The notes beneath the pieces were generated by a model. It searched no databases, was not told the origin of the DNA, and saw only the letters and a program-made list of their open reading frames with translations. A stretch of DNA of 64,000 nt from Marinilabiliales bacterium (GTDB taxonomy: Bacteria > Bacteroidota > Bacteroidia > Bacteroidales > PUMT01), in assembly GCA_007695015.1 (NCBI GenBank), contig REEN01000047.1, positions 1-64,000 on the forward strand. The letters run 5' to 3'. A program made the position numbers and the translations under genes. Positions 29,581 through 48,551 of this stretch are shown here, one piece after another (positions within the stretch are counted from its first letter, which is position 1; every line of letters starts with the position of its first letter).

Positions 29581-30375
29581 TTATCCTATCATTATTACCG
29601 ATGCCGGATCATTAACCCTCAGGGTAAACGATTCGGTGAGGAATAACCGGACCTCTTTTTCGTTATGCGATTCATAACCTATTGAGATATCCTGCCCAAT
29701 CACCAGGTTGATATCCTCTGCAGCGGAGGGTACAAGGAATGCCTCTTCAATGAAATGGCCCATAATTACCGGACCTCCCAATAGTTTCTCCAGCTGAAGC
29801 TTAAGTGGATATCCTTTGAAATGTGAAGAAATCTGCTTCCATAGCGCGGGACTGACTACAAGTGTCCATGGACCGGTGACTGATGCATCCATCATCTTTG
29901 TGATGCCCTCCGAAACTGTTGAGAGCAGGCCTTCTATACTGCCCGGCAACTGCAGCTTTTCTGAAGAATTTACATCTTTGAGACCGGTGACTGATGCATT
30001 TTTGATTCCGTAGTAGACAGTCTTCTCCTCAAACTCAGCCAGCTTGACCGCTGCCTCTTCCAGCTGATCAAGATCTGCATCCCTGGCTCCCCTGGCCAGG
30101 TTGTCCAGTTCCCATATGTTAAGTTTAAAGCTTATTCGTGGTTCTATAAGGGGCTGCACTTTATGAATTCCATAAACAACGCCTTTTTTATCCTGTCCTC
30201 CTGGAATATCGAGTCTTCCGGTGGGCACTGCAGCATAGTCCCATCCCATCGGCCCGCTTATTGAAGCGAACCTTCGTGCTGAAAGATGAGAGCTGAGTAT
30301 CTGTTTTGCTGCCGATTTTATTTCCTGCCATGCTTCATCAGAAAGCGGGGCCAGTGATTGTTTTAATATGTCCAT
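29581..30375 (-). CDS. Encapsulin nanocompartment shell protein (family 1)
   Basis: A 264-residue HK97-fold shell protein. Recognisable family 1 features are the N-terminal helix (LAPLSDEAWQEIKSAAKQILSSHLSARRF), the following DYAAVPTGRLD strand, and VQPLIEPRISFKLNIWELDNLARGARDADLDQLEEAA. VSPALWKQI, GGPVIMG and the C-terminal FLTESFTLRVNDPASVI also match. Sixty such subunits normally assemble into a T=1 shell of about 24 nm that stores iron when loaded with ferritin-like cargo. The gene starts 6 bp after the cargo gene, so the two are one operon. Confidence 0.95.
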   Translation of the reverse strand: MDILKQSLAPLSDEAWQEIKSAAKQILSSHLSARRFASISGPMGWDYAAVPTGRLDIPGGQDKKGVVYGIHKVQPLIEPRISFKLNIWELDNLARGARDADLDQLEEAAVKLAEFEEKTVYYGIKNASVTGLKDVNSSEKLQLPGSIEGLLSTVSEGITKMMDASVTGPWTLVVSPALWKQISSHFKGYPLKLQLEKLLGGPVIMGHFIEEAFLVPSAAEDINLVIGQDISIGYESHNEKEVRLFLTESFTLRVNDPASVIMIG

Positions 30376-30381
30376 AGCGAT

Positions 30382-30693
30382 TTATTTTATTTTTCCTATT
30401 CCAAGGTCAGACGGATCCTCTTCTTTGCCGTCCTCCTTAAAAAGTTGTTTTCTTAGTTCGTCGTCCCACACAGGCATGTTTTTCCGCAGCCATTCGATGG
30501 TTTTACAGGCATGCTCGATCTCCTCATCCCTGTTGTGTATTAGAATATCTTTTAGCTCATCATCTTTGGTTGTAACAACGCGCTGGTGATACCAGTCCAC
30601 TGCCTCAACCTCTTCCTTGAGGCTGTTCAGCGCCCTTGAAAAATCCCTGTCGCGGGGACTGAGCTCTTCTACAGGTTCATGATAATTTGACAT
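30382..30693 (-). CDS. Encapsulated ferritin-like protein (EncFtn) with C-terminal cargo-loading peptide
   Basis: A 103-residue two-helix ferroxidase. The iron-site residues known from Rhodospirillum EncFtn are all present at a constant offset: Glu27, Glu30, Trp34 (EEVEAVDWY), Glu58 and His61 (DEEIEH). A flexible acidic linker (EDGKEEDPSD) leads to the end DLGIGKIK, which matches the LGIG-type targeting peptide that binds the inside of the encapsulin shell. Function by family: oxidises Fe(II) and delivers it into the shell for storage, protecting the cell from iron and oxidative stress. On the minus strand a TATGTTTTG just upstream is close to, but not exactly, a -7 element. Confidence 0.95.
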   Translation of the reverse strand: MSNYHEPVEELSPRDRDFSRALNSLKEEVEAVDWYHQRVVTTKDDELKDILIHNRDEEIEHACKTIEWLRKNMPVWDDELRKQLFKEDGKEEDPSDLGIGKIK

Positions 30694-34592: not shown

Positions 34593-35309
34593 ATGAAACC
34601 ACTGGTTTTTTTATTTGCATTGACAGTCAGTTTCTCCGGTATTATTAATGCCCAGAACCTTGACGACATTCTTACAAGCCATTTAGATGCAATAGGTCAG
34701 CATAACCTGAGCAAAGTGAACGGCTTGAAGATTTCCGGCACAGCCGTGCAAATGGGAAGGGAGATGCCTTTCTTTACCATACAGAAAAGGCCCGACAAGA
34801 TCTATAACGAGATCGATATTGAAGGCACCAGGGTGATCCATGCTTTTGACGGCACTACAGGGTGGGCCCTGGAGCCATGGGTAAGTGAAGAGCCACGCGA
34901 GCTTAACGAAGATGAACTGGCGAATGTTGTCCGTACAGCCGATATTGACAGCGACCTGTATAACTGGAGAAGAAGGGGGCGCGAATTGCACCTGGTGGGT
35001 GTTGAAAATTTTGAGGGCCGCGAGGTATATAAACTGGAGCTTTTTATCTCTGAGGAATATAACTACCTGTACTACCTGGATACGGAAACATTCCTCATTA
35101 CGAAGATTGTTAACCGAAGCCTGAGTCCGGGAGGTGAAATGTTTGAGGGAGAGACAAGAATCGCTGAATACATTAGGGTTAACGACATGATGTTCCCCGC
35201 CAGGACAGAGTTCCGGCTCGGGGGGCAGTTGCAGATGATCAGCCTGGTTGATGAAGTTACAATTGATCCGGACATGGATGATGATGTTTTTTCAATGCCT
35301 AATGATTGA
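34593..35309 (+). CDS. LolA-like outer membrane lipoprotein-sorting family protein, periplasmic
   Basis: A 238-residue protein with a signal peptide (LVFLFALTVSFSGIINAQ). The fold pattern resembles LolA/LolB-type half-barrels: GTAVQMGREMPFFTIQKRPDKIYNEIDIEG, VIHAFDGTTGWALEPW, VYKLELFISEEYNYLYYLDTETFLITKI, and VNDMMFPARTEFRLGGQ. Members of this group bind lipid moieties in the periplasm. Its stop (TGA 35307-35309) overlaps the only start candidates of the downstream dehydrogenase. Translational coupling is therefore likely, although a functional link is not obvious. Confidence 0.8.
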   Translation: MKPLVFLFALTVSFSGIINAQNLDDILTSHLDAIGQHNLSKVNGLKISGTAVQMGREMPFFTIQKRPDKIYNEIDIEGTRVIHAFDGTTGWALEPWVSEEPRELNEDELANVVRTADIDSDLYNWRRRGRELHLVGVENFEGREVYKLELFISEEYNYLYYLDTETFLITKIVNRSLSPGGEMFEGETRIAEYIRVNDMMFPARTEFRLGGQLQMISLVDEVTIDPDMDDDVFSMPND

Positions 35310-38272
35310 GATCTTCTGTGCCTGAAATTGTCGAGGATATTGATTTTTCATCACTAAAAAGGGAACTGGCAGGAGAGATTCTTTTCGATAAGGTGACCAG
35401 GGTGCTTTATGCTACAGACGCTTCGGTTTACCGGGAACTTCCAGCTGCCGTTTGCCTTCCGGCGAATGAGGCTGATATCATAAAACTTGTCAGGTTTGCC
35501 TCGACGCATGGCTTACCGGTTATACCAAGGGGAGCCGGCACTTCCCTGGCCGGCCAGGTTGTGGGCAACGGTATTGTTGCTGACGTGTCAAGGTATATGA
35601 ACCGTATAATTGAGCTCAATACCGAAGAGAGGTGGGTAAGGGTTGAACCGGGTGTAGTGCTTGACGAGCTTAACCAGTATATCAGTCCCCATGGTCTCTT
35701 CTTTGGTCCCGAAACATCCACTTCAAACCGTTGCATCATCGGAGGAATGCTTGGCAACAATTCGTGCGGTGCCCATTCGCTTATCTACGGAAGTACCAGG
35801 GAACATACCCTGGAGGTGAGGGCGGTACTTTCAGACGGCAGCGTTGCCCTATTTGGGAGCAGGACAAATGAGCAGTTCAGGGACATGTGCAATGGAGAAA
35901 ATCTTGAGAGCAGGATTTACAGGCATATAGACCTGACGTTGGGTGACAGCCGCATTGCCGGCCGGATAAGGAACGGGTACCCCGATCACCGGGTGACACG
36001 CCGGAACACCGGATATGCCCTTGATCTTCTGCTGGAGACTGCACCATTTACCGATGGCGGCAAGGATATTAACCTCTGCACCCTGCTGGCAGGCTCTGAG
36101 GGCACCCTTGCCTTTGCAACTGAGATCAAGCTTAACCTGGTTCCGCTGCCTCCTCCCTGCAAGGCGCTGGTATGTGCGCACTTCAAAACCCGTGAGGAAG
36201 CGCTGAGGGCGACCCTGCTGGCTCTTGAGTTCAATCCCGGGGCAGTCGAGATGATGGATGACATCATATTGAATCTTACCCGCGATAATCTTGAGCAGGG
36301 GAAGAACCGTTTCTTCATTGAGGGAGATCCGGCTGCCATACTGATAATCGAATTTGCGGAGGAATCTCATGACCGGATCACGCAGGCTGCCAGTGCAATG
36401 GAGAAGAGGATGAGGGATGCCGGATACGGCTATCATTTTCCCGTGATCAGTGGTAAGGACATCCCCAGGGTTTGGAACCTCAGGAAAGCCGGACTGGGAG
36501 TGCTGTCGACCATGAAAGGAGATGCAAAGCCGGTATCTCTGATCGAGGATACATCGGTGAGAGTGGATGTGTTGCCGGAATATATTGACGAGGTAAGCGC
36601 CCTGCTTGAAAAGTACGGCAAGGAGGTGGTTTTTCATGCTCATGTGGGGTCGGGAGAGCTTCATATGCGGCCGGTACTGAACCTGAAAGACCCCGTCGAT
36701 GTCGATCTTTTTTACAGGATAGGCAGGGATGTCGCCCTTCTGGTAAGGAAATACCGCGGCTCCCTCAGCGGCGAGCATGGCGACGGACGTCTCAGGGGAG
36801 AGTTCATTCCCCTGGTCCTTGGAGAGGATAATTACAGCCTGTTATGCGAGCTTAAGGAAACCTGGGATCCGCAGGGTGTTTTCAACCCGGGCAAGATAAC
36901 CGGTACTCCCCCTATGAACACCCATCTTCGTTATACTCCCGGGAGGGAGGTGAACGAATACGAGACCCTGTTTGATTTTTCACCCTGGGGAGGAATAGTC
37001 CGTTTTACCGAGCAATGCAACGGGTCGGGTGACTGCCGCAAGAGTGAGAAGGCAGGAGGGACCATGTGCCCCAGCTTTATGGCAACGAGGGATGAATATA
37101 CCACCACCAGGGCAAGGGCAAACCTCATGAGGGAATTCCTTACAAATCCACCGGGCAGTGGCCCGTTCAGCAGCAGGGAGCTGTATGATATCCTGGACCT
37201 TTGTCTCTCATGCAAGGGATGTAAGTCGGAGTGCCCCTCGAACGTTGATATGGCGAAGCTTAAAGCCGAGTTCCTGCAACACTGGTACGATAAAAACGGC
37301 ACTCCTCTCAGGGCCCGGCTGGTTGCCAACATCACTCTCATATACAGGATCGGATCAGTATGGCCCGGACTGTTCAATGCTGTTTTAAGTAACCCTTTCA
37401 TTTCTAAAATGGTGAAATCTCTTGCCGGGTTTGCACCTGAAAGGAGCATACCCCTGCTTCACTCATGCCTCCTCCGGGGTTGGATGCGCCGTTACCGGTT
37501 CATGGTTAATGGCGGTGATCATCAAAATGGCAGGGTGCTTCTTTTTGCAGATGAGTTTACCGGTTACAATGACGTGCATGTGGGCATCAGGGCAGTTATG
37601 CTGCTTGACCGCCTCGGTTACCGTACTGACATTATGAAACATGGTGTGAGCGGGCGCACATTCATCTCCAAGGGTTTCCTGCGCAGGGCCAGGAAGATCG
37701 CACAAAAGAACATTGAGCTTTTTTCTGGCATATCGGTCAATTATGTTGCGATTATAGGTATAGAACCTTCAGCAATTCTCACCTTCAGGGATGAATATCC
37801 CGACCTCACCGGCCGGGAGTATGCCGACAGGGCCAAAAAGCTGGCCGGATCAGTGTTCATGATTGATGAATTCATTGCATCTGAGTCCGACATAGGAAAG
37901 ATAACACCCGGACAGTTTACCCGGGAGCCGGCGGAAGTGCTTCTGCACGGCCATTGCCAGCAGAAGGCGGTGGCTTCAACCGCCCCGACGATCAGGATGC
38001 TTTCCCTGCCTGAAAATTACAGGGTGAGGGAGATCCCTTCGGGATGCTGCGGCATGGCGGGATCATTCGGGTATGAGAAGGAGCATTATGAACTCTCAGT
38101 GAAAGTAGGCGAGCTGGTGCTCTTTCCCGAAGTAAGGGCAGCTTCACCCGGCACCCTGATCGCTGCACCCGGCACGAGTTGCAGGCACCACATAACCGAC
38201 GGAACCGGCAGGAAGGCCCTTCACCCCGTTGAGATCATGTATGACGCACTGATACAGTCGCCGGAAACCTGA
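35306..38272 (+). CDS. Fused FAD- and Fe-S-dependent 2-hydroxyacid dehydrogenase (GlcD-GlcF / D-lactate dehydrogenase type)
   Basis: About 988 residues. The N-terminal FAD-binding domain (about 45-200) has PRGAGTSLAGQVVGNGIVAD and a TSTSNRCIIGGMLGNNSCG segment. The FAD-oxidase C-terminal domain (about 225-530) has VFHAHVGSGELHMRP and SGEHGDGRLRGEF. A ferredoxin-like segment has Cys motifs C-x6-C...C near 570 and CLSCKGCKSECPSNVD near 632. The CCG heterodisulfide-reductase-like domain at the C-terminus has HGHCQQKAV and SGCCGMAGSFG. Enzymes of this type oxidise D-lactate, glycolate or other 2-hydroxyacids and pass electrons to quinone or another carrier. The start is TTG 35306 or GTG 35318; neither is ATG. 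Neighbours suggest supply of a 2-oxoacid to the oxidoreductase at 41124-43525. Confidence 0.92.
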   Translation: MRSSVPEIVEDIDFSSLKRELAGEILFDKVTRVLYATDASVYRELPAAVCLPANEADIIKLVRFASTHGLPVIPRGAGTSLAGQVVGNGIVADVSRYMNRIIELNTEERWVRVEPGVVLDELNQYISPHGLFFGPETSTSNRCIIGGMLGNNSCGAHSLIYGSTREHTLEVRAVLSDGSVALFGSRTNEQFRDMCNGENLESRIYRHIDLTLGDSRIAGRIRNGYPDHRVTRRNTGYALDLLLETAPFTDGGKDINLCTLLAGSEGTLAFATEIKLNLVPLPPPCKALVCAHFKTREEALRATLLALEFNPGAVEMMDDIILNLTRDNLEQGKNRFFIEGDPAAILIIEFAEESHDRITQAASAMEKRMRDAGYGYHFPVISGKDIPRVWNLRKAGLGVLSTMKGDAKPVSLIEDTSVRVDVLPEYIDEVSALLEKYGKEVVFHAHVGSGELHMRPVLNLKDPVDVDLFYRIGRDVALLVRKYRGSLSGEHGDGRLRGEFIPLVLGEDNYSLLCELKETWDPQGVFNPGKITGTPPMNTHLRYTPGREVNEYETLFDFSPWGGIVRFTEQCNGSGDCRKSEKAGGTMCPSFMATRDEYTTTRARANLMREFLTNPPGSGPFSSRELYDILDLCLSCKGCKSECPSNVDMAKLKAEFLQHWYDKNGTPLRARLVANITLIYRIGSVWPGLFNAVLSNPFISKMVKSLAGFAPERSIPLLHSCLLRGWMRRYRFMVNGGDHQNGRVLLFADEFTGYNDVHVGIRAVMLLDRLGYRTDIMKHGVSGRTFISKGFLRRARKIAQKNIELFSGISVNYVAIIGIEPSAILTFRDEYPDLTGREYADRAKKLAGSVFMIDEFIASESDIGKITPGQFTREPAEVLLHGHCQQKAVASTAPTIRMLSLPENYRVREIPSGCCGMAGSFGYEKEHYELSVKVGELVLFPEVRAASPGTLIAAPGTSCRHHITDGTGRKALHPVEIMYDALIQSPET

Positions 38273-38487
38273 CTTTTATCTTGTTGTAATAAAAAGTCAA
38301 ATGTTAGCTTTGTGTAACGTTTCCCTTGTCACGGACCTATTACAAACAGATGGAACCCGCAATAGCCTTAGGCAGAAAAAATAACCTGTACAAACCATGC
38401 GGGTTTCATACGTTCAAGGCACTGAATACCGATAGTATACTAAACATAATTCATCGATTCTTTATTTGATAAACCTGATTTGTACGG

Positions 38488-39915
38488 ATGAACATTTATC
38501 TGACGGTAATATTAAGCTATTTCCTGTTCATCATACTTGTTTCGCTTTTCACCAAGCGTATTGCAAGCAGGTCTGCCGCCGATTTCCTGGTGGCCGGAAG
38601 GAATCTGGGACTGATAGCATGTGCGGTAGTGGTAGCATCGGAGTGGCTTGGCGGCATGAGCACCATCGGGGTCAGTGAAAAAGCCTTTACTTCGGGCACG
38701 ATGCAGCCTGTACTCTACAATATATCCACTGCCTTTGGCATGATCATCATAGGGTTTACCGTTGCCCGGTATTACCGTGAGAAGAACGTACATACGGTAA
38801 GCGAGATGCTTGAGAGTCTTTTCGGCAAGCGTACAAGGAGTGTTTCGGCAGTAGCATTCCTTGCAGCCTATATAACCCTTTCATATGTGCAGCTGCAGAC
38901 CTGTGCAAGTGTCCTTGGCCCCCTTTTCGACATAAGCTGGACCAATGCTGTGCTTATATCGTCGATAGTGATAACAGCCTACACCTATGTTGGCGGTATG
39001 CACGCGCTGGCTATCACAGGGATCATACACGTAGCGGCTATGTTCATCGGAACAGGTATTGCTCTTGTTGTGGGGCTGGACAAGATTAATGGCTTCGAAG
39101 CTCTTTCCCTGCGTCTTGTGGAGCTGGGGTCGCCGGCCAACTGGTACAATCCCTTCAGCGGGGGCATGTCGTATGCCATGTCGCTTATAGTCGGCGGAGT
39201 GCTGGGCGGTATGGCCGGCCAGGCAAGCATCCAGCCCATATTTGCAGCACGCAATGTTAAAACGGCAAGGAATTCTGCAATCCTTTCGAGCCTTATAATT
39301 GCCCCTTTCGGGATCATGGTGGCACTGCTCGGCCTTATTGCCCTGACAGGCTACTTTATAGATGCTGAAGCCGTTACAAATCCGAAGATGGTGCTTCCAA
39401 CCCTGATGACAACCGAGGAGTTTATCCACCCGTTTTTCGGGGGACTGGCACTGGCGGGCATACTGGCTGCCATTCTCTCAACGGTGGGTCCTGTAAACTT
39501 CGCGGTGGTCACCATAGCCACCAAGGATATCTACCACAGCCTTATAAACAAGACGGCGGTGGACCAGAAGATAGTTGCCACGGCACGAAGGCTGGTCATC
39601 CTGGTCAACTTCGTAACTATTCCCATGGCGATATTCATTCACGGTGCAATACTTGATGCTGCATATGTATCCTACGCAATAAGGGCCATAGGTGCCATAG
39701 TGATAATACTTGGTATTTACCGCAGGGGCTGGATAAGCTCTGAAGGGGTGAGATGGGCTTTTGCCGGAGGTACGGCGGCTGTGCTCCTTGCAGTTGCCGG
39801 CAATAAATTGGGCTGGTTCAGGATAGAAGAGACCTTTGTAGGTGTGGGCTCGGCAATACTGTTCATTATAGCCGGAAACATCAGGGAAAAGCTCAGAAGA
39901 TCAGGATCCCATTAA
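38488..39915 (+). CDS. Sodium:solute symporter family (SSS) transporter
   Basis: A 475-residue membrane protein with about 12-13 helices. It starts NIYLTVILSYFLFIILVSLFTKRIASRSAADFLVAGRNLG, which is typical of SSS. It also has AYTYVGGMHALAITGIIHVAAMFIG and GVLGGMAGQASIQPIFAARNVKTAR (the SSS signature region), plus AAILSTVGPVNFAVVTIATKDIY near the Na+ site helix. It imports a small organic solute using the Na+ gradient. The substrate is inferred, not shown, to be the acid oxidised by the flanking enzymes. It lies 13 bp before the CoA-transferase gene. Confidence 0.92.
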   Translation: MNIYLTVILSYFLFIILVSLFTKRIASRSAADFLVAGRNLGLIACAVVVASEWLGGMSTIGVSEKAFTSGTMQPVLYNISTAFGMIIIGFTVARYYREKNVHTVSEMLESLFGKRTRSVSAVAFLAAYITLSYVQLQTCASVLGPLFDISWTNAVLISSIVITAYTYVGGMHALAITGIIHVAAMFIGTGIALVVGLDKINGFEALSLRLVELGSPANWYNPFSGGMSYAMSLIVGGVLGGMAGQASIQPIFAARNVKTARNSAILSSLIIAPFGIMVALLGLIALTGYFIDAEAVTNPKMVLPTLMTTEEFIHPFFGGLALAGILAAILSTVGPVNFAVVTIATKDIYHSLINKTAVDQKIVATARRLVILVNFVTIPMAIFIHGAILDAAYVSYAIRAIGAIVIILGIYRRGWISSEGVRWAFAGGTAAVLLAVAGNKLGWFRIEETFVGVGSAILFIIAGNIREKLRRSGSH

Positions 39916-39928
39916 AAAGATATTTAGT

Positions 39929-41134
39929 ATGGAAACTCCGCTAAAGGGTATTATGGTTACCGAACTTGCCAACGTGCTGGCCGGACCCAGCGTGGGATTG
40001 TTCCTGGCCGAGATGGGCGCCACGGTGATCAAGGTTGAGAACGTAAAGTCGTGCGGTGACGTGACCAGGCACTGGAAGCTTCCGGTGGAGAACCCGGATA
40101 CCGATATATCAAGCTACTTTTCATGCGTTAACTGGGGGAAGCAGTCCCTCGCCGTTGACATGAGCACCGGCGACGGACTGGAGATTGTCAACCGGCTGGT
40201 TCGCAAAAGCGATATCCTTCTTTCCAGCTACAAGCCCGGCGACGCCGAAAAGCTGAAGGTGGACTATAACTCGCTTAAGGCCCTTAACGAAAAACTAATC
40301 TACGCGCATGTGACGGGATACGGCCCGGATAATCCAAGGGCGGGTTATGATGCCATCATACAGGCTGAGAGCGGTTTTACCTATATGAACGGTGAGCCCG
40401 GTGGTAACCCGACCAAGATGCCGGTTGCGCTGATGGATGTGCTGGCGGCTCACCAGATGAAGGAGGCCATACTTCTTGCCCTGCTTTCACGTGAAAGGGG
40501 AGGCGGGGGACAGTTTATAGAGGCTTCGCTGCTCAGATCGGGCGTTGCATCACTGGCAAACCAGGCCACAAACTGGCTGGTGGGCCGGTCGATACCCCGG
40601 AGGATGGGGTCGGACCATCCAAACATAGTGCCATACGGTACCATCTTTTCAACTGCAGACGGAAAAGAGATAGTGCTTGCGGTAGGCACCGACAAACAGT
40701 TCGGTGAGCTGTGCCGTTTGCTGGGGAGACCGGAGATGGCTTATGATGAGAGGTTTGTTAAGAATTACAACAGGGTTGTCAACAGTGAAGAGCTCAAGAG
40801 GGTGCTCCAGGAACTCATTGGCGGGTATGAAAGAAAAGAGATACTTGAGCTGCTGGAGAGCAGGCGTGTACCTGCGGGCGGGGTGTTTAACATGAAAGAG
40901 GTTTTTGAAACGCCCGAAGCAGCCTCGATGCTGATTGAGGCGCCATTCAACTCAGGATCGATAAAGGGGGTCAGCTCAGTTGCTTTTTCATCAGACCGGA
41001 TAGAGGTCGCCAGAAATCTTCTGCCGCCTCCGCACTATGGTGAACACAGCAAACAGATACTGACAAACCTGCTGGGATATTCCGGGGACAGGATTGATGA
41101 ACTCCTGAAAAACAATGTGATATATGCAAGTTAA
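39929..41134 (+). CDS. CaiB/BaiF family (class III) CoA-transferase
   Basis: A 401-residue enzyme. Class III CoA-transferase features: the N-terminal LKGIMVTELANVLAGPSVGLFLAEMGATVIKVEN, GYGPDNPRAGYDAIIQAESGFTYMNGEPGGNPTKM, and the catalytic Asp in ALMDVLAAHQ. GLGxP-like SIPRRMGSDHPNIVPYGTIF and a C-terminal PPPHYGEHSKQIL follow. It moves CoA between carboxylic acids. The 11-bp overlap with the next gene (2-oxoacid oxidoreductase alpha) points to a coupled role: recycling the CoA of the acyl-CoA product. Confidence 0.93.
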   Translation: METPLKGIMVTELANVLAGPSVGLFLAEMGATVIKVENVKSCGDVTRHWKLPVENPDTDISSYFSCVNWGKQSLAVDMSTGDGLEIVNRLVRKSDILLSSYKPGDAEKLKVDYNSLKALNEKLIYAHVTGYGPDNPRAGYDAIIQAESGFTYMNGEPGGNPTKMPVALMDVLAAHQMKEAILLALLSRERGGGGQFIEASLLRSGVASLANQATNWLVGRSIPRRMGSDHPNIVPYGTIFSTADGKEIVLAVGTDKQFGELCRLLGRPEMAYDERFVKNYNRVVNSEELKRVLQELIGGYERKEILELLESRRVPAGGVFNMKEVFETPEAASMLIEAPFNSGSIKGVSSVAFSSDRIEVARNLLPPPHYGEHSKQILTNLLGYSGDRIDELLKNNVIYAS

Positions 41135-42242
41135 GAATGACAGTCAGATGGTTATCATTGACGGCAGCCGTCTTGTAACCGAAGCGATGGCCCGGGCAGG
41201 GGCCGATGCTTTCATAGGTTATCCCATTACACCGGCGAACCTGCTGTACCAGTATGCAGGCCGGCGCCTGCCCCTGATGCTTCCCGCCCCCGATGAAATA
41301 ACAACCCTGCAGTGGATGTCGGGTCTTGCAGCAGCCGGCAGGATCCCGGTTACGGCAACATCATTTCCCGGGTTTGCACTGATGATAGAATCGGTAAATA
41401 TGGCTTTTATGATGGAATTGCCCATGGTAATCGTGCTTGTCCAGCGACTGGGACCGGCAACGGGGACAGCCACATGCGGGGCGCAGGGAGACCTGGCGCT
41501 GCTGAGGGGGATGATATCGGGAGGCCACCAGGTGCCGGTGCTGTGTGGTGACGGCTTTAAGGATACCTGGAATCTTGCTGCAGAAGCAGTACATACTGCG
41601 GTCCGCCTCCGCACCCCTGTGATATTCCTTACCTCAAAGGAGGAGATGATGACCCGCAGAAGTTTCGATCTGTCACTGCTGGATGATATTTCCCCCTTTG
41701 AAAGGCATTCTCCCGGTGGTACTGAATACAAAACCTACGAACCGGGAAAGGACGGGATCCCGGCGTTCCTTCCCGTGGCCAACGGGAGCCGGCAGGTCCG
41801 GCTCAATGCCTCCACTCATGACAGGGAAGGGATACTGCGTCATTCCACCAGTGAGGCCCTGGCCAATACCAGGAGACTTGAGGATAAGGCGAAGCATCAT
41901 CTGGAAAGCTATACCTGTTACCAATATGATAGCCAGGATGATGCCGCCACACTCGTTGTGTCCTACGGAATAACCGCTGCTGCTGCCAGGGAAGCTGTAA
42001 GCGGTATCCGCGAAAGCGGAAAAAACGTGTCGCTTCTTGTCGCAGGCACATTGCTGCCATTGCCGGATATCTATTACGTGATTACAGGTAAATATGAAAG
42101 GGTAGTAATAACCGAGGAGAATATCAATGCCCAGTTTGCCAGGCTTATGTTTGGAGAGAAACTGCCTGAAAGGGTTCGCACTGTTGGTGCGTTAGGAAAG
42201 ATGATTGCTCCCGGCGAAATAACCAGGGAGGTACTGTTATGA
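41124..42242 (+). CDS. 2-oxoacid:acceptor oxidoreductase, alpha subunit
   Basis: A 372-residue protein with the pyrimidine-binding (Pyr) domain of thiamine diphosphate 2-oxoacid oxidoreductases: AFIGYPITPANLLYQYAGRRLP at the start, then TLQWMSGLAAAGRIPVTATSFPGFALM and LVQRLGPATGTATCGAQGDLALLRGM. The C-terminal transketolase-like domain includes TLVVSYGITAAAAREAV and ERVVITEENINAQFARLM. No ferredoxin domain and no gamma domain are in this subunit, unlike many KorA and IorA proteins. The stop overlaps the next gene by ATGA. Substrate not readable (2-oxoglutarate, branched-chain or aryl 2-oxoacids are candidates). Confidence 0.9.
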   Translation: MQVKNDSQMVIIDGSRLVTEAMARAGADAFIGYPITPANLLYQYAGRRLPLMLPAPDEITTLQWMSGLAAAGRIPVTATSFPGFALMIESVNMAFMMELPMVIVLVQRLGPATGTATCGAQGDLALLRGMISGGHQVPVLCGDGFKDTWNLAAEAVHTAVRLRTPVIFLTSKEEMMTRRSFDLSLLDDISPFERHSPGGTEYKTYEPGKDGIPAFLPVANGSRQVRLNASTHDREGILRHSTSEALANTRRLEDKAKHHLESYTCYQYDSQDDAATLVVSYGITAAAAREAVSGIRESGKNVSLLVAGTLLPLPDIYYVITGKYERVVITEENINAQFARLMFGEKLPERVRTVGALGKMIAPGEITREVLL

Positions 42243-43525
42243 GCACAATACTGAGGAGAAAAGATCTGCCCTACTGCAAAGGGTGCGGACATGACCTTAT
42301 AGCAAAGAATACGGCTAAGGCACTGGAGCGTATGGGACTTGAGGCCCTGGATGTGACGGTGGTTACAGATATAGGTTGTCACGGTATTATTGATGGCTGC
42401 CTCAATACTCACACTGTTCACGGCCTCCATGGCAGGTCTGTTGCCCTTGGCGCAGGTATCGCTATGGGAACAGGGGAAAAGGGGAATAAGATCATTGTAT
42501 TCATAGGTGACGGCGGCAGCACTATCGGACTGCAGCATATACTTGAGGCCGCCAGGCTGAACCTGGACATGACCGTGGTGGTGCATAACAACATGCTTTA
42601 CGGGATGACGGGGGGACAAACAAGCGGACTTACTCCCTGCGGCTTTAAAACAACCACATCGTCTGAGGGGAATCCCTGGTCAGGCTACGACCTTTGTGCC
42701 CTTGCACACACTTCGGGTGCTGCATTTTCAGGCCGGGTAGCCGGCGTGGGTGATATTTCCGGTATACTGCAGGAGGCATTTGAAACTGGCGGGTTCTCGC
42801 TGATCGAGGTCGTTGAAATTTGTCCCAGTTACGGTGTAAGGCTCAATCCCGGAAAGAAACTCAGAGAGATCATGGAGGACTCGGGAAGGCTGCCCGGGAG
42901 ATGGGTAAACGACAGGAAGCCGTTTATGATTGAGCAGGGTAAGAAGAGCGAAGACCTTCTGAGTGAGCTTAAGACTATTGCCCCAGGTAATAATGTGCCG
43001 CCAGGTAATGCCGTTTCTGTTATTTTAAGTGGCTCGGCCGGCGAGGGTGTTCAACTTGCCGCCGGCATTCTTGCTGCCGCTGCTGTAAGCTTGGGATACC
43101 ACGTTACACAGAAGGGCAGCTACCCGGTGACTGTAGGTGTTGGGTTTTCCACAGCCGAGCTTATCATTTCACCCCGGACGGTAATGTACCACGGCATTGA
43201 CATACCCGATATGGTGGTGGTCACTTCTGATGACGGACTTGAGCACTGCAGGAGGAGAGTGGAAGCTATGAAAAGGGGCAGCCTCTTTATTGACAGTTCG
43301 CTTGAGTGCCCGCCAACGGGAGCAGTGGTGGTTGCTCAAGATTTCCGTTCTATCGGTGCAAGGAATGCGATACTGTTTGCACTGTTCAGGATGGCTGCAG
43401 ACACAGGCATCCTGCAGCCGGAGGTTATTCGCAGCATTGCTCTTGAGAGTGGTTTGCCGGCCACAGTTCCGGTCGACAAAATGATGGAGCTGGCCACCGG
43501 CCGGGCAGCCACAGGAACTCCCTGA
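42239..43525 (+). CDS. 2-oxoacid:acceptor oxidoreductase, fused beta-gamma subunit
   Basis: A 428-residue fusion. Residues 1-250 are the thiamine diphosphate beta subunit: LPYCKGCGHDLI with two Cys of a 4Fe-4S site, VTDIGCHGIID, VHGLHGRSVALGAGIAMG, the TPP/Mg motif GDGGSTIGLQH...HNNMLYGMTGG, and ICPSYGV. Residues about 255-428 are the gamma domain (VSVILSGSAGEGVQLAAGILAAAAVSLGYHVTQKGSYPVTVGVGFSTAELII). Beta and gamma are usually separate, or gamma is fused to alpha. Here gamma is on beta, which is uncommon. Together with the alpha subunit it should convert a 2-oxoacid plus CoA to acyl-CoA, CO2 and reduced ferredoxin. No dedicated ferredoxin subunit is present. Confidence 0.9.
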   Translation: MSTILRRKDLPYCKGCGHDLIAKNTAKALERMGLEALDVTVVTDIGCHGIIDGCLNTHTVHGLHGRSVALGAGIAMGTGEKGNKIIVFIGDGGSTIGLQHILEAARLNLDMTVVVHNNMLYGMTGGQTSGLTPCGFKTTTSSEGNPWSGYDLCALAHTSGAAFSGRVAGVGDISGILQEAFETGGFSLIEVVEICPSYGVRLNPGKKLREIMEDSGRLPGRWVNDRKPFMIEQGKKSEDLLSELKTIAPGNNVPPGNAVSVILSGSAGEGVQLAAGILAAAAVSLGYHVTQKGSYPVTVGVGFSTAELIISPRTVMYHGIDIPDMVVVTSDDGLEHCRRRVEAMKRGSLFIDSSLECPPTGAVVVAQDFRSIGARNAILFALFRMAADTGILQPEVIRSIALESGLPATVPVDKMMELATGRAATGTP

Positions 43526-43857: not shown

Positions 43858-44211
43858 ATGTTAAATCAGTATGAAACCGTTTTCATTATTACTCCCGTTT
43901 TGTCTGAAAGTCAGATGAAGGAAGCGGTTGAAAAAGTCAGGAAAATTATCACTGACAACGGAGGAGAGATAGTCCACCATGAGGACTGGGGATTGAGGAA
44001 ACTGGCCTATCCCATCAAAAACAAATCCACGGGCTTTTACAACCATTTTGAGTTCAGGGCGCCCGGAGAGCTTGTCGCAAAGCTTGAGACCGAATATAAG
44101 CGTGATGAGCGCTTTCTGAGGTTTCTCACTTTTCGCATGGACAAGTATGCGATCGTGTATAGTGAGAAAAGACGTTCAATTGCTAACAAGGAAGTAAAGA
44201 AGGAGGAATAA
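43858..44211 (+). CDS. rpsF: 30S ribosomal protein S6
   Basis: A 117-residue ribosomal protein. It starts [30 protein letters not shown] and contains [24 protein letters not shown] and [17 protein letters not shown], all typical of S6. It pairs with S18 on the 30S platform. A short charged tail (NKEVKKEE) is common in the phylum. First of three cotranscribed ribosomal genes. Confidence 0.98.
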
Positions 44212-44214
44212 GCC

Positions 44215-44484
44215 ATGGCACAAAATCAATCAGAAATCAGATATCTCACCCCTCCAACGGTAGAGATCAAAAAGAAGAAATATTGCCGTTTCAGGAAGAA
44301 CAAGATAAAGTATGTTGACTACAAGGATCCCGAGTTCCTGAAGAAGTTCCTCAACGAGCAGGGTAAAATACTTCCCCGCCGGATAACCGGTACATCGCTT
44401 AAGTACCAGCGTAAGGTGTCAACAGCGGTAAAACGTGCCCGGCACCTTGCATTGCTGCCTTATGTAACGGATTTGTTTAAATAA
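44215..44484 (+). CDS. rpsR: 30S ribosomal protein S18
   Basis: An 89-residue basic protein with [40 protein letters not shown] and [20 protein letters not shown], diagnostic for S18. A strong AGGAGG lies 9 bases before ATG 44215, which is worth noting because most genes here lack a Shine-Dalgarno sequence. Three bp after rpsF. Confidence 0.98.
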
Positions 44485-44502
44485 ATAATTGGAGGACCGA
44501 AA

Positions 44503-44949
44503 ATGGATATTATACTTAAGCAGGATATAGAGAATCTTGGTTATGCCGATGACATAGTTACAGTAAAGGACGGATATGCCAGGAATTTTTTGATACCCAG
44601 AGGTATTGCTGTTGTTGCTACTCCCTCAGCCCGAAAGATGCATGAAGAAAACCAGAGGCAGAGGGCTCACAAGGCGGCAAAAATACTTGAGGAAGCAGAA
44701 GCATTCCGTGATAAGATAGAGGGAACAAAGCTTACAATCGGTGCGAAAACCAGCACCAAGGGCAAGATCTTCGGCTCGGTTAACACTATTCAGATCGCAG
44801 AAAAGCTCAGTGAGCTCGGTTTTGAGATTGACCGGAAGCAGATCTCCATAAAGGAAGACCTGGTCAAGGAGGTCGGCACCTACACCGCCACTATTAAGCT
44901 TCACAAGGAGGTCAAGGTAGAGGTGGAGTTTGAGATTGTTTCAGAATAG
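44503..44949 (+). CDS. rplI: 50S ribosomal protein L9
   Basis: A 148-residue L9: MDIILKQDIENLGYADDIVTVKDGYARNFLIPRGIAV is the conserved N-terminal RNA-binding domain, followed by the long connecting helix and the C-terminal domain (FGSVNTIQIAEKL). GGAGG precedes the start. Last gene of the rpsF operon, followed by a terminator. Confidence 0.98.
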   Translation: MDIILKQDIENLGYADDIVTVKDGYARNFLIPRGIAVVATPSARKMHEENQRQRAHKAAKILEEAEAFRDKIEGTKLTIGAKTSTKGKIFGSVNTIQIAEKLSELGFEIDRKQISIKEDLVKEVGTYTATIKLHKEVKVEVEFEIVSE

Positions 44950-45182: not shown

Positions 45183-45566
45183 TTATTTCACCGCAATGGT
45201 CTCAATCTCGACCATTACACCCAGCGGAAGCCTGAACACTCCGTATGCAGCCCTTGCCGGTGGATCTTCATGGTAGTATTCTGCATAAACCTCGTTCATG
45301 GCTGCGAAATTGTCCATGTCATCCAGAAGACAGGTAGATTTTACCACGTCTGAGAAGCCATAGCCGGCCTCTTCAAGTACCGCTCCTATATTTTCCATCA
45401 CCTGGCTGGTCTGTTCCCTTATTCCTCCATCGGCTATCTTCCCGGTTGCCGGGTTGACAGGGATCTGTCCGCTGATAAAAAGTGTCCCGTTTATTTCAAC
45501 GGCCTGTGAATAGGGCCCTACAGCTGCAGGCGCTTTTTTGGTGTGGATTATTCGTTTCATATTCAT
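45183..45566 (-). CDS. ridA: RidA family enamine/imine deaminase
   Basis: A 127-residue protein of the YjgF/RidA family: KAPAAVGPYSQAVEINGTLFISGQIPVNPATGKI at the start, and ARAAYGVFRLPLGVMVEIETIAVK with the conserved Arg and Glu at the end. It hydrolyses reactive 2-aminoacrylate-type enamines made by PLP enzymes. It lies 60 bp after the lptD start side and is read in the same direction, so it may be cotranscribed with lptD. Confidence 0.95.
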   Translation of the reverse strand: MNMKRIIHTKKAPAAVGPYSQAVEINGTLFISGQIPVNPATGKIADGGIREQTSQVMENIGAVLEEAGYGFSDVVKSTCLLDDMDNFAAMNEVYAEYYHEDPPARAAYGVFRLPLGVMVEIETIAVK

Positions 45567-45626
45567 TGGGTTATGTTAATGAAGGGTTTTCGTATACCCG
45601 GTGTTGAGCTATATTGTTTCGGCCTT

Positions 45627-48551
45627 TTACCTGAAAAAGTTGTCGTACCAGCTGCGCTGGGTGTGATACTTGAGGTCTTTGAGCATGGATGATTTTACCT
45701 GGATGGTAAAATTCCAGCTTTTCCTTGATCCGAACGGAACAACCCCAAACCTCATCTCCCAGCAGTGAAGGTCCCTGTAAACATTAATATTGGTCATCGT
45801 AAAATCTCCTGCCCTGAAATCATAACCTGAACTGAAGCCGATCCTCCATCTTGGCGTGAGACTCATATCTCCCGAAAAATTAACGGATTGATTTATCTGT
45901 ATTTCATCACGTGGCTTGGCATATGTCAGGTTATACCTTAGGCTCAGGTTCCACGGTACATTGAAATCAACGTAATCGCCATAATAATAAACCGAGGCAT
46001 CTATATCGTCCAGGTGAGAGAACCTGTCCTCTCCGGGAGGCATTTCGTCTCCGGCTGTTATCATGGGGTCCATTCCTTCAGGTTGTGCCAATCCGTTACC
46101 GGGGGGTGGTGCACCAGGAGCCGGCCTCCTGTCCGCCGCCGCTGAACGTAATCCCATGGTCATACTAAGTCCCGCCCTCGTTATACGCCCCGGTCTCCTG
46201 TTTACGCTCCACTGAGAGGCGCTGTAGCGCCTGAAATTATCATCAACGGCATAGGGGTCCATCACTGCATTGAAATTGATATTGACCCTGTTGTTCAATA
46301 TGGATGTGTTCCCGCTCATGTTAACTGTCGACCAGTTCATGGAGTCGGCATAAACATTGTAACTGGTAGTAAAGTTGAGCCGGTCCAGTATTTTTACCTT
46401 ACGTGATTCAGCATCCGGGTCGTTCCGGTCACGCACTTTCATTTCGATATTGTTTGCAAGGCTGAGGCTGACTGATCCGGCACGCCCCCTTATAGACGGG
46501 GTTCCGTATAGCTGTCCCTCAAATATTGAATAAACGGTTGTATTGCCCAGGGTATCCCTTTGGACCTCCCTGTAGTAATCCGGCACCAGTCCTTCCATAT
46601 CGGGAGTGAAACTGAAGCCGACCGACGGAACCATCACATGCCTGATCGCTTCAACCCTTGAATCCCTGAACTGGAACATGCCGTATATATTCTGGCTCAG
46701 GCCTGTGGAGAAACTGGGGGTCAGTGCGTGACCGTAGACTATACCGGGGATTGTATCGGTAACAAGACTTGGGACAACCTCATTTCTTACCGGGTCAAAA
46801 TAATCATCCACCCAGGTCTTCCTTATCTGCTCGGTGTACATGACACCGGTATAGGTGAGTGAAGGTGTCAGGTTAAGAAGGTTAAGAACCCTGAAGTTGG
46901 CACGCAGGGGTATGTCATGCTGGAAACCGCTCTGCATATCGCCCAGCGTTTCCCTTCTGAAAAGGAGTGTGTCGAAGGTGTTTATCCTGTTGTCAAGCTT
47001 TGAGGAATAGCTGAGCTCAATATTGTCATACCAGCGCTGCTCTACCCTGTCGGGGTTCCTGAAAGGATACTGCCTGGCCATGTTAAAATTGACTGAGGGC
47101 ATCCTTACGCTGACCGATTGGTTAGAGAAGTTCTGGTTTGCGCTTATGTTGCTTGTCAGGCTGAACGGCGAGTCGGGCCACCGGTGGCTTAACGAAATAC
47201 TTGACTGCGCAGTATTCTGAGCAAACCTGTCCGGATCAACAGTATTGAACCGGTTGAACGAGCTGGATCCGAAATTTACACTTGCCGAGAAATTACTGTA
47301 GGGCGAGGCCTTGGGGTCCTGCCTGTGCTGCCATGCAATATTGTAGGAGGTATTCTGCTGGAAATTTGCCATTCCCCTGTCACCAACAACATTGTTTGAA
47401 TAGGCAAATCGCATGCTTCCCCCGAACCTGTAGCGCAGATTGTAATTTGACATGGCGTTTGCCGACCATGATCCAAGGCTGTAAACATCGCCGGTAAGCC
47501 GCAGGTCTACATAATCGTTGAGATGCAGGTAGTATCCCAGCTCGCGCAGGTAGAAACCCCTGTTTGCCTCTTCGCCGTAACTGGGCATCAGGACACCCGA
47601 GGTGCGGTCGGGTTTGTTGGGAAAGAAACCAAACGGAACAGCAATGGGCAGCGGGATATCTTCAATTACCAGGTAGGCCGGCCCGCTGATAACCATTTCA
47701 TCGGGGATCACTTTTGCCCTGGTAAGAGCGATATAGAAATGAGGATGTTCATGGTCACATGAAGTATATTTACCCCCATGGATGTGAAGATGGTCATTTT
47801 CGTGCTTCTTTGTTACGTTACCGTGGAGAAAGCCCCCTTCCTGCTCCGTGATAATTCCTGAAATCCATCCCTTTTCAGTCTCGAAATTATACCTCATTAT
47901 CTCTGCCTCGTATGTGTCGCGACCCTCGGTCATTACCGGCCGTCCCGTTATTACACCGTTTTCATCTGGAAGGCCGCTTGCATATATCTCCCTGGCGTTC
48001 ATATCCATTTCAATATAGGCTGCCCTGAGCTCAATATTTCCGTATTTGACCCATGCCTCTCCATACAGAAATATTTTATTTTCAGAAACAGAAATATCTA
48101 TGGAATCTTCAGCATTGTACTCCAGTGGTGCTTCAAGCCGGTCGGACCGTCGCTCTGCCCTGTCGGGCGATGATGGTTGCTCAGGGCCGGCCTCAGACGG
48201 TTCTTCGCCGGTATCCGGCAGCGGCTCAATGCCCGGATAATAGATATCACGTCCGAGCGTATCGGGAATAATCCCTTGACGTAACTGATCCAGTGTATCG
48301 GGTGTCGCATCCTGGAGTAACTGGTTCAGTGTATCGGGAATCGCATCCTGGGGTAACTGATTCAGTGTATCTGGCCTGATCCCCTGGGACTGTCCCTGAC
48401 TGGGATCAGGGGGCAGCGGTGTATATGCAGCCAAATACGGAACAACCTGCTCCGGAGGTTTGTCGAATCCGGAGATCAAAAGCACCAGTATTATAGAAGG
48501 TATTATGTGAAGGAGGAGCTTAAAAAGCTTGATATAATACTTATTATGCAA
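45627..48551 (-). CDS. lptD: LptD-like outer membrane LPS-assembly protein
   Basis: A 974-residue protein. A signal/anchor stretch (LLLHIIPSIILVLLISG) is followed by a Pro/Thr/Leu repeat linker, an OstA-like beta-jellyroll (about 150-270: KIFLYGEAWVKYGNIELRAAYIEMDMNAREIYASG), and a large C-terminal beta-barrel with alternating aromatic strands. This is the Bacteroidota form of LptD, which inserts lipopolysaccharide into the outer leaflet. The only usable start is TTG 48551: an in-frame TGA lies 30 bases upstream, no ATG lies between, and the next Met is far downstream of the signal segment. It is divergent from the amidase gene. Confidence 0.88.
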   Translation of the reverse strand: MHNKYYIKLFKLLLHIIPSIILVLLISGFDKPPEQVVPYLAAYTPLPPDPSQGQSQGIRPDTLNQLPQDAIPDTLNQLLQDATPDTLDQLRQGIIPDTLGRDIYYPGIEPLPDTGEEPSEAGPEQPSSPDRAERRSDRLEAPLEYNAEDSIDISVSENKIFLYGEAWVKYGNIELRAAYIEMDMNAREIYASGLPDENGVITGRPVMTEGRDTYEAEIMRYNFETEKGWISGIITEQEGGFLHGNVTKKHENDHLHIHGGKYTSCDHEHPHFYIALTRAKVIPDEMVISGPAYLVIEDIPLPIAVPFGFFPNKPDRTSGVLMPSYGEEANRGFYLRELGYYLHLNDYVDLRLTGDVYSLGSWSANAMSNYNLRYRFGGSMRFAYSNNVVGDRGMANFQQNTSYNIAWQHRQDPKASPYSNFSASVNFGSSSFNRFNTVDPDRFAQNTAQSSISLSHRWPDSPFSLTSNISANQNFSNQSVSVRMPSVNFNMARQYPFRNPDRVEQRWYDNIELSYSSKLDNRINTFDTLLFRRETLGDMQSGFQHDIPLRANFRVLNLLNLTPSLTYTGVMYTEQIRKTWVDDYFDPVRNEVVPSLVTDTIPGIVYGHALTPSFSTGLSQNIYGMFQFRDSRVEAIRHVMVPSVGFSFTPDMEGLVPDYYREVQRDTLGNTTVYSIFEGQLYGTPSIRGRAGSVSLSLANNIEMKVRDRNDPDAESRKVKILDRLNFTTSYNVYADSMNWSTVNMSGNTSILNNRVNINFNAVMDPYAVDDNFRRYSASQWSVNRRPGRITRAGLSMTMGLRSAAADRRPAPGAPPPGNGLAQPEGMDPMITAGDEMPPGEDRFSHLDDIDASVYYYGDYVDFNVPWNLSLRYNLTYAKPRDEIQINQSVNFSGDMSLTPRWRIGFSSGYDFRAGDFTMTNINVYRDLHCWEMRFGVVPFGSRKSWNFTIQVKSSMLKDLKYHTQRSWYDNFFR
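48235..48380 (-). repeat. 36-bp tandem repeat in the lptD N-terminal linker
   Basis: About four units of 12 codons (PDTLNQLPQDAI, PDTLNQLLQDAT, PDTLDQLRQGII, then a partial PDTLGRD) form the segment between the signal peptide and the OstA-like domain. Units differ by a few bases. Length variation here would stay in frame. Confidence 0.85.

Follow-up and report, generated by a model that had tools for sequence, protein, structure and literature searches.

In the 64,000-nucleotide stretch of Marinilabiliales DNA analyzed here (the window), genes for a sodium:solute-type (SSS) symporter, a class III CoA-transferase (CoAT), and the alpha and beta-gamma subunits of a 2-oxoacid oxidoreductase (OR) form a conserved four-gene unit (38488-43525). 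The oxidoreductase represents a previously undescribed branch within the 2-oxoacid:ferredoxin oxidoreductases (OFORs), with its gamma domain fused behind beta. From sequence and gene context, we give an even chance to the proposal that it represents a new OFOR subfamily whose main substrate would be 2-oxoadipate, with the resulting glutaryl-CoA then exchanged by the CoA-transferase.

Layout and conservation of the four-gene unit

The region from 34593 to 43525 contains six open reading frames and a candidate promoter, as follows:

34593-35309, + strand: protein of no known family (238 aa; Pfam and NCBIfam searches without match)
35306-38272, + strand: GlcD/GlcF fusion with FAD and Fe-S, 988 aa (NF049975, 613 bits; cut-off 1350)
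38280-38312, + strand: candidate Bacteroidota-type promoter for the four genes of the unit (CTTG-N21-TAGCTTTG)
38488-39915, + strand: SSS symporter, opening the conserved unit (PF00474, 120 bits)
39929-41134, + strand: class III CoA-transferase (PF02515, 318 bits)
41124-42242, + strand: OR alpha (TIGR03710, 215 bits, cut-off 482.75; PF01855, 108 bits)
42239-43525, + strand: OR beta with gamma fused behind (PF02775 and PF01558)

All six frames are intact and lie on one strand, and the intergenic gaps, in gene order, are -4, 215, +13, -11, and -4 nt, in agreement with a preliminary description of consecutive genes running in one direction with close or overlapping starts in the last of them. The gaps of +13, -11, and -4 nt indicate that the symporter, CoA-transferase, and two OR genes are packed in an operon-like manner, with the GlcD/GlcF fusion set apart by 215 nt. 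The first gene, whose product appears LolA-like by eye only, overlaps the start of the GlcD/GlcF fusion by 4 nt and is kept 5' of it across the window's genus.

Conservation was assessed by collecting 80 loci (L105-L184) with an OR beta-gamma profile and counting same-strand adjacent pairs. ORalpha and ORbeta-gamma are adjacent in 73 of these loci, CoAT and ORalpha in 33, and SSS and CoAT in 29; SSS is directly adjacent to ORalpha in three, and adjoins either CoAT or ORalpha in 32. The four-gene order is thus far beyond chance expectation, which upholds the earlier suggestion of an undescribed conserved set of transporter, CoA-transferase, and 2-oxoacid:ferredoxin oxidoreductase. The search for the gene order elsewhere was only partly favorable to the longer arrangement first described: SSS-CoAT-OR occurs in many Bacteroidales, but adjacency to GlcDF, with five GlcDF-SSS same-strand pairs among the 80 loci, is restricted to the window's family, where the order GlcDF-SSS-CoAT-ORalpha-ORbeta-gamma is repeated within genus and family. 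Other Bacteroidales families have the four genes in varied surroundings, with the named strain Perlabentimonas gracilis as one example, and Fermentibacteria/Hyd24-12-type genomes have SSS-ORalpha-ORbeta-gamma without CoAT. The OR fusion is rare (9/295 genomes of the class and 19/396 of the phylum at E <= 1e-60, own genome counted) and its branch is present in Bacteroidota, Ignavibacteria, Chloroflexi, and Fermentibacteria genomes; a search of viral contigs gave a single weak match.

A conserved element (e.g., TATCTTGTTG...TTAGCTTTG) is present in the gap between GlcDF and SSS in 6/6 loci of the family. The Bacteroidota promoter consensus has TAnnTTTG at -7, and we read the element as a promoter because it fits this consensus. 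TAnnTTTG is found in 21/30 symporter upstream regions, three of these having a match just inside the gene, compared with 5.2 expected from base shuffles. The CTTG-N21-TAGCTTTG pattern has its sole match in the window here, which at a chance expectation of 0.55 is not significant alone. Taking the sequence evidence together, the element at 38280-38312 is likely the promoter of the four-gene unit. Scans for sigma-70 promoters and for terminators gave no surplus relative to shuffles, and a stem-loop 3' of the dehydrogenase gene is not better than shuffles (z -0.9).

We note several other features of the window. Directly 3' of the unit are rpsF and rplI (43858-44949), an arrangement found across most of the genus; other genes occupy this position in the next genus of the family. 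An encapsulin shell gene (29581-30693, - strand; PF04454, 258 bits) has a gene for an encapsulated-ferritin-like cargo (PF22277, 131 bits) directly upstream, and the two are predicted to form an iron-storage nanocompartment of known type. At 45183-48551 (- strand), a RidA-family protein gene (PF01042) adjoins one for an LptD-like outer-membrane protein (PF19838).

Oxidoreductase, CoA-transferase, and symporter

The alpha subunit has YPITP at residues 33-37 and Arg108 within QRLGPATG, both kept in all clades, and the beta part has a TPP domain (PF02775) and invariant Cys13, Cys16, Cys47, and Cys195 for a [4Fe-4S] cluster. The C-terminal gamma domain occupies approximately residues 258-428 of ORbeta-gamma, of which Pfam (PF01558) covers only half. 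An AlphaFold model of ORbeta-gamma (mean pLDDT 81.7) matches OOR/OFOR beta chains (8ys5_C, 34% identical) as well as the Geobacter gamma subunit 3on3_A (TMt 0.78). With YPITP and Arg, TPP domain, four cysteines, and gamma domain all in place in sequence and model, the protein is predicted to be an enzyme of this superfamily.

Both subunits score far under every curated profile cut-off, the curated 2-oxoglutarate profiles giving 137.1 for alpha (cut-off 579) and 139.8 for beta (cut-off 364). Residue 50 of beta is Ile in the window and Ile or Leu throughout the OR family, whereas enzymes using 2-oxoglutarate have Lys or Arg at the equivalent position; in Sulfolobus OFOR1, the K49I substitution abolished 2-oxoglutarate use (PMC5020499). 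We rejected a role as a 2-oxoglutarate enzyme because of the profile scores and Ile50.

The closest points of comparison are KorAB/OorDABC (Helicobacter pylori 8ys5 and Magnetococcus 6n2o), which share with the window's enzyme the TPP domain, YPITP, the Arg that binds the carboxylate, and four cysteines for a single [4Fe-4S] cluster. They differ in that the Kor/Oor gamma is free or in front of alpha rather than fused behind beta, and the window's enzyme has Ile50 in place of Lys/Arg, the gamma motif KGSYPVTVGVGFS, and scores far under the curated cut-offs. Sulfolobus StOFOR1/2 likewise have no ferredoxin domain, a single cluster, and equivalent catalytic residues, but have a gamma-alpha fusion and a broad use of pyruvate and 2-oxoglutarate; StOFOR K49, L123, and D468 correspond to Ile, Met, and Ser in the window's OR, the Ser by visual alignment. 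We regard the OR as a new variant of a known superfamily because of its beta-gamma order, its motif set, and its probable substrate. A literature search, in which subscription journals were mostly outside coverage, found no named 2-oxoadipate:ferredoxin oxidoreductase, and nothing relevant linking saccharopine, OFOR, and glutarate.

The CoA-transferase has a PF02515 domain and a catalytic-type Asp170 that is invariant in 36 alignment rows, features that place it in class III. Its nearest curated family is succinate--glutarate CoA-transferase (SUGCT; NF052585), at 292 bits (next best, 183), although this misses the cut-off of 750 by far; the match to human SUGCT is 218 bits. The catalytic Asp of SUGCT is in place, with the difference that the window's gene is linked to those for the OR and a symporter. 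In the SSS protein, PF00474 spans residues 33-412 of 475, and scores against the NCBIfam SSS families are below each cut-off, with no substrate subfamily reached.

Genomic evidence on the substrate

The most direct indication of substrate comes from relatives of the OR. A glutaryl-CoA dehydrogenase gene lies beside the same ORalpha/ORbeta-gamma pair at 15 distinct loci in about ten unrelated backgrounds, and the one dehydrogenase that was tested matches ten glutaryl-CoA-dehydrogenase-type structure entries at 378-443 bits compared with 259 for the next kind. In L171, L089, and L090, genes for a homoaconitase (867 and 883 bits to TIGR00139 in the two tested; cut-off 529.9) and a homoisocitrate-dehydrogenase-like protein (274, under cut-off) lie near the pair. 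These neighbors point to conversion of 2-oxoadipate to glutaryl-CoA. In a quick OR tree of 96 rows, in which several forks are weakly supported, the SSS-CoAT loci form two separate clades interleaved with the glutaryl-CoA-dehydrogenase-linked loci, and the active-site motifs are unchanged between the two contexts; a common substrate is the simplest reading of these patterns. The window's clade is itself never beside a glutaryl-CoA dehydrogenase gene, and the substrate is therefore transferred from relatives that are ~45-55% identical.

Co-occurrence across whole genomes was considered as proof and set aside as weak, since glutaryl-CoA dehydrogenase is in any case widespread across the phylum (293/396 genomes, and 262/295 in the class); its association with the OR has a Fisher p of 0.005 in the phylum and is not significant in the class. 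Other contexts are also seen. In the L183 group, a different acyl-CoA dehydrogenase adjoins the OR. A gene for butyrate kinase lies close by, 5' of SSS-OR, in L149, L158, and L180, accompanied in L158 by a phosphotransacylase gene; these three genomes are without lysine-ketoglutarate reductase.

Glutaryl-CoA dehydrogenase was not found in the window's genome or in its sampled family. The genome does encode a lysine-ketoglutarate reductase (L213:4396-5598; AASS, 1.9e-39), which scores higher against the catabolic AASS (138.7 bits) than against LYS1 of yeast (63.2 bits), and a glutamate-forming saccharopine dehydrogenase (L207:9523-10863; 5.5e-91). The reductase is present in 20/22 SSS-CoAT-OR genomes outside the family and in both sampled members of the order that carry the unit, compared with 18/42 relatives of the order without OR (Fisher p 7e-5, or 6e-4 at a stricter cut-off). 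Because kinship and habitat are uncontrolled and confound it, we take this association as support short of proof. The reductase is missing in the seven Fermentibacteria/WOR-3-type OR carriers and in several of Chloroflexi type, which suggests that there the precursor has another origin or the substrate is different.

The genome also encodes four paralogous oxidoreductases: a PFOR (1885 bits; cut-off 911), a VorB-type enzyme (556 bits; cut-off 399), a KOR-type alpha (645 bits; cut-off 483), and an IOR-type alpha (515 bits, under the cut-off of 651). As judged from these assignments, pyruvate, branched-chain, 2-oxoglutarate-type, and aryl oxoacids would each be covered separately. Branched-chain or aryl substrates, as originally listed for testing, are less likely given the separate VorB- and IOR-type paralogues and the glutaryl-CoA dehydrogenase neighbors in relatives.

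Two OR loci elsewhere were also noted. At L167:7489-17466, genes for a glutaryl-CoA dehydrogenase, the OR pair, a homoisocitrate-dehydrogenase-like protein, and two aconitase-family proteins are clustered; these may form 2-oxoadipate from 2-oxoglutarate and acetyl-CoA, which is odd beside glutaryl-CoA breakdown. At L183:1016-21286, the OR pair of a distant carrier is within a long same-strand run that includes hydantoinase A/B-like genes, a 3-hydroxyacyl-CoA dehydrogenase/hydratase fusion, thiolase-like genes, a non-glutaryl acyl-CoA dehydrogenase, mutase-like subunits, a CoA-transferase-like gene, and IOR genes, and which is possibly another degradation pathway.

Alternative readings and a proposed pathway

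The preliminary description had the GlcD/GlcF protein as the entry point, such that a 2-hydroxyacid is imported, oxidized by GlcD/GlcF to a 2-oxoacid, and decarboxylated by the OR, with CoA handed to a new acid. The position of the dehydrogenase gene directly 5' in the window's family is as this would predict, and D-2-hydroxyadipate could conceivably supply 2-oxoadipate. Nonetheless, a GlcD/GlcF homologue is present, nearly always as a single copy, in 41/60 relatives, many of them without OR; the gene is not beside SSS-CoAT-OR in other families, and even within the family at least one member (G009) has a different gene 5' of the transporter. The conserved, likely promoter also lies between GlcD/GlcF and the symporter. 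NF049975 (YdiJ) is by far its best family, albeit below that family's cut-off, and the protein is predicted to be a YdiJ-like D-2-hydroxyacid (D-2-hydroxyglutarate-type) dehydrogenase. YdiJ, its nearest characterized enzyme, is strictly specific for D-2-hydroxyglutarate, which arises as a by-product when serine is made (PMC9504171), and a housekeeping role therefore fits the fusion. On distribution and promoter together we rejected the dehydrogenase as a member of the unit, to which it is probably a bystander, and we consider the hydroxyacid route very improbable.

Two further explanations retain the four genes but change the chemistry. The OR of the window's clade could act on a different 2-oxoacid, whether branched-chain or C4-C6 aliphatic, or on a broad range of them, with the glutaryl-CoA link confined to distant relatives; the lack of glutaryl-CoA dehydrogenase in this clade, the several non-Bacteroidota carriers with no lysine reductase and with butyrate-kinase genes nearby, and the different acyl-CoA dehydrogenase of the L183 group can all be read this way. 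We think it unlikely in view of the interleaved tree, the active-site motifs that do not change with context, and the separate PFOR and VorB-, IOR-, and KOR-type enzymes of the genome. Alternatively, the unit could run in reverse, with the symporter importing an acid, the CoA-transferase (elsewhere phosphotransacylase and kinase) activating it, and the OR carboxylating it reductively for amino-acid synthesis; with glutarate, this would give 2-oxoadipate and then lysine via reversible saccharopine enzymes. Anaerobes are known to carboxylate exogenous acids reductively, and clustering of a transporter and an acid-activating enzyme with the OR, as SSS-CoAT-OR in Bacteroidales and with butyrate kinase (and phosphotransacylase in L158) at the three loci above, is in keeping with it. 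It also accounts for the transporter better than an oxidative model does, a transporter being hard to explain if 2-oxoadipate is made intracellularly. The link with glutaryl-CoA dehydrogenase seen in many relatives points to breakdown, however, as does the AASS-like character of the genome's own lysine reductase, and we regard reversal as distinctly unlikely.

Oxidation of 2-oxoadipate, the reading that we prefer, would form part of a scheme for which we infer substrate, direction, CoA acceptor, and transported compound alike. Lysine would be converted via saccharopine, 2-aminoadipate semialdehyde, and 2-aminoadipate to 2-oxoadipate, the semialdehyde dehydrogenase and 2-aminoadipate aminotransferase steps past saccharopine dehydrogenase being putative, and the OR would then catalyze 2-oxoadipate + CoA + 2 oxidized ferredoxin -> glutaryl-CoA + CO2 + 2 reduced ferredoxin. 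As the host has no glutaryl-CoA dehydrogenase, we propose that the CoA-transferase takes over the glutaryl-CoA, with succinate or acetate as acceptor, yielding glutarate and succinyl- or acetyl-CoA and saving energy. The symporter may bring in a precursor derived from lysine or transport the acid that is produced. The acyl-CoA intermediate with onward transfer of CoA, as first suggested, fits the predicted activities of the OR and CoA-transferase.

The mitochondrial 2-oxoadipate dehydrogenase complex, acting with glutaryl-CoA dehydrogenase, likewise gives glutaryl-CoA from 2-oxoadipate, as proposed here, and the window's genome also has saccharopine enzymes; in contrast to mitochondrial lysine degradation, the window's enzyme would be ferredoxin-linked and is encoded by two genes, in a family without glutaryl-CoA dehydrogenase. 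In VorABC/Bkd-Ptb-Buk systems the acyl-CoA formed by the oxidoreductase is similarly released as the acid with energy saved, and buk (and ptb) genes are near the OR in some carriers, but the window has a CoA-transferase in place of Ptb/Buk, and a separate VorB in the genome. The wider proposal, that a dedicated 2-oxoadipate:ferredoxin subfamily enables anaerobic Bacteroidales to ferment lysine via saccharopine to glutarate with CoA transfer, and that other lineages have glutaryl-CoA dehydrogenase in place of the CoA-transferase, or perhaps phosphotransacylase and kinase, is more tentative, and we hold it at somewhat less than even likelihood.

Known anaerobic lysine fermentation proceeds through lysine aminomutases and 3,5-diaminohexanoate. 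If the proposal is correct, the saccharopine route with ferredoxin-linked decarboxylation would be a different path for obtaining energy from lysine, one that yields low-potential electrons. A widespread but unnamed OR branch would gain a substrate, and OFOR specificity would become testable at defined residues.
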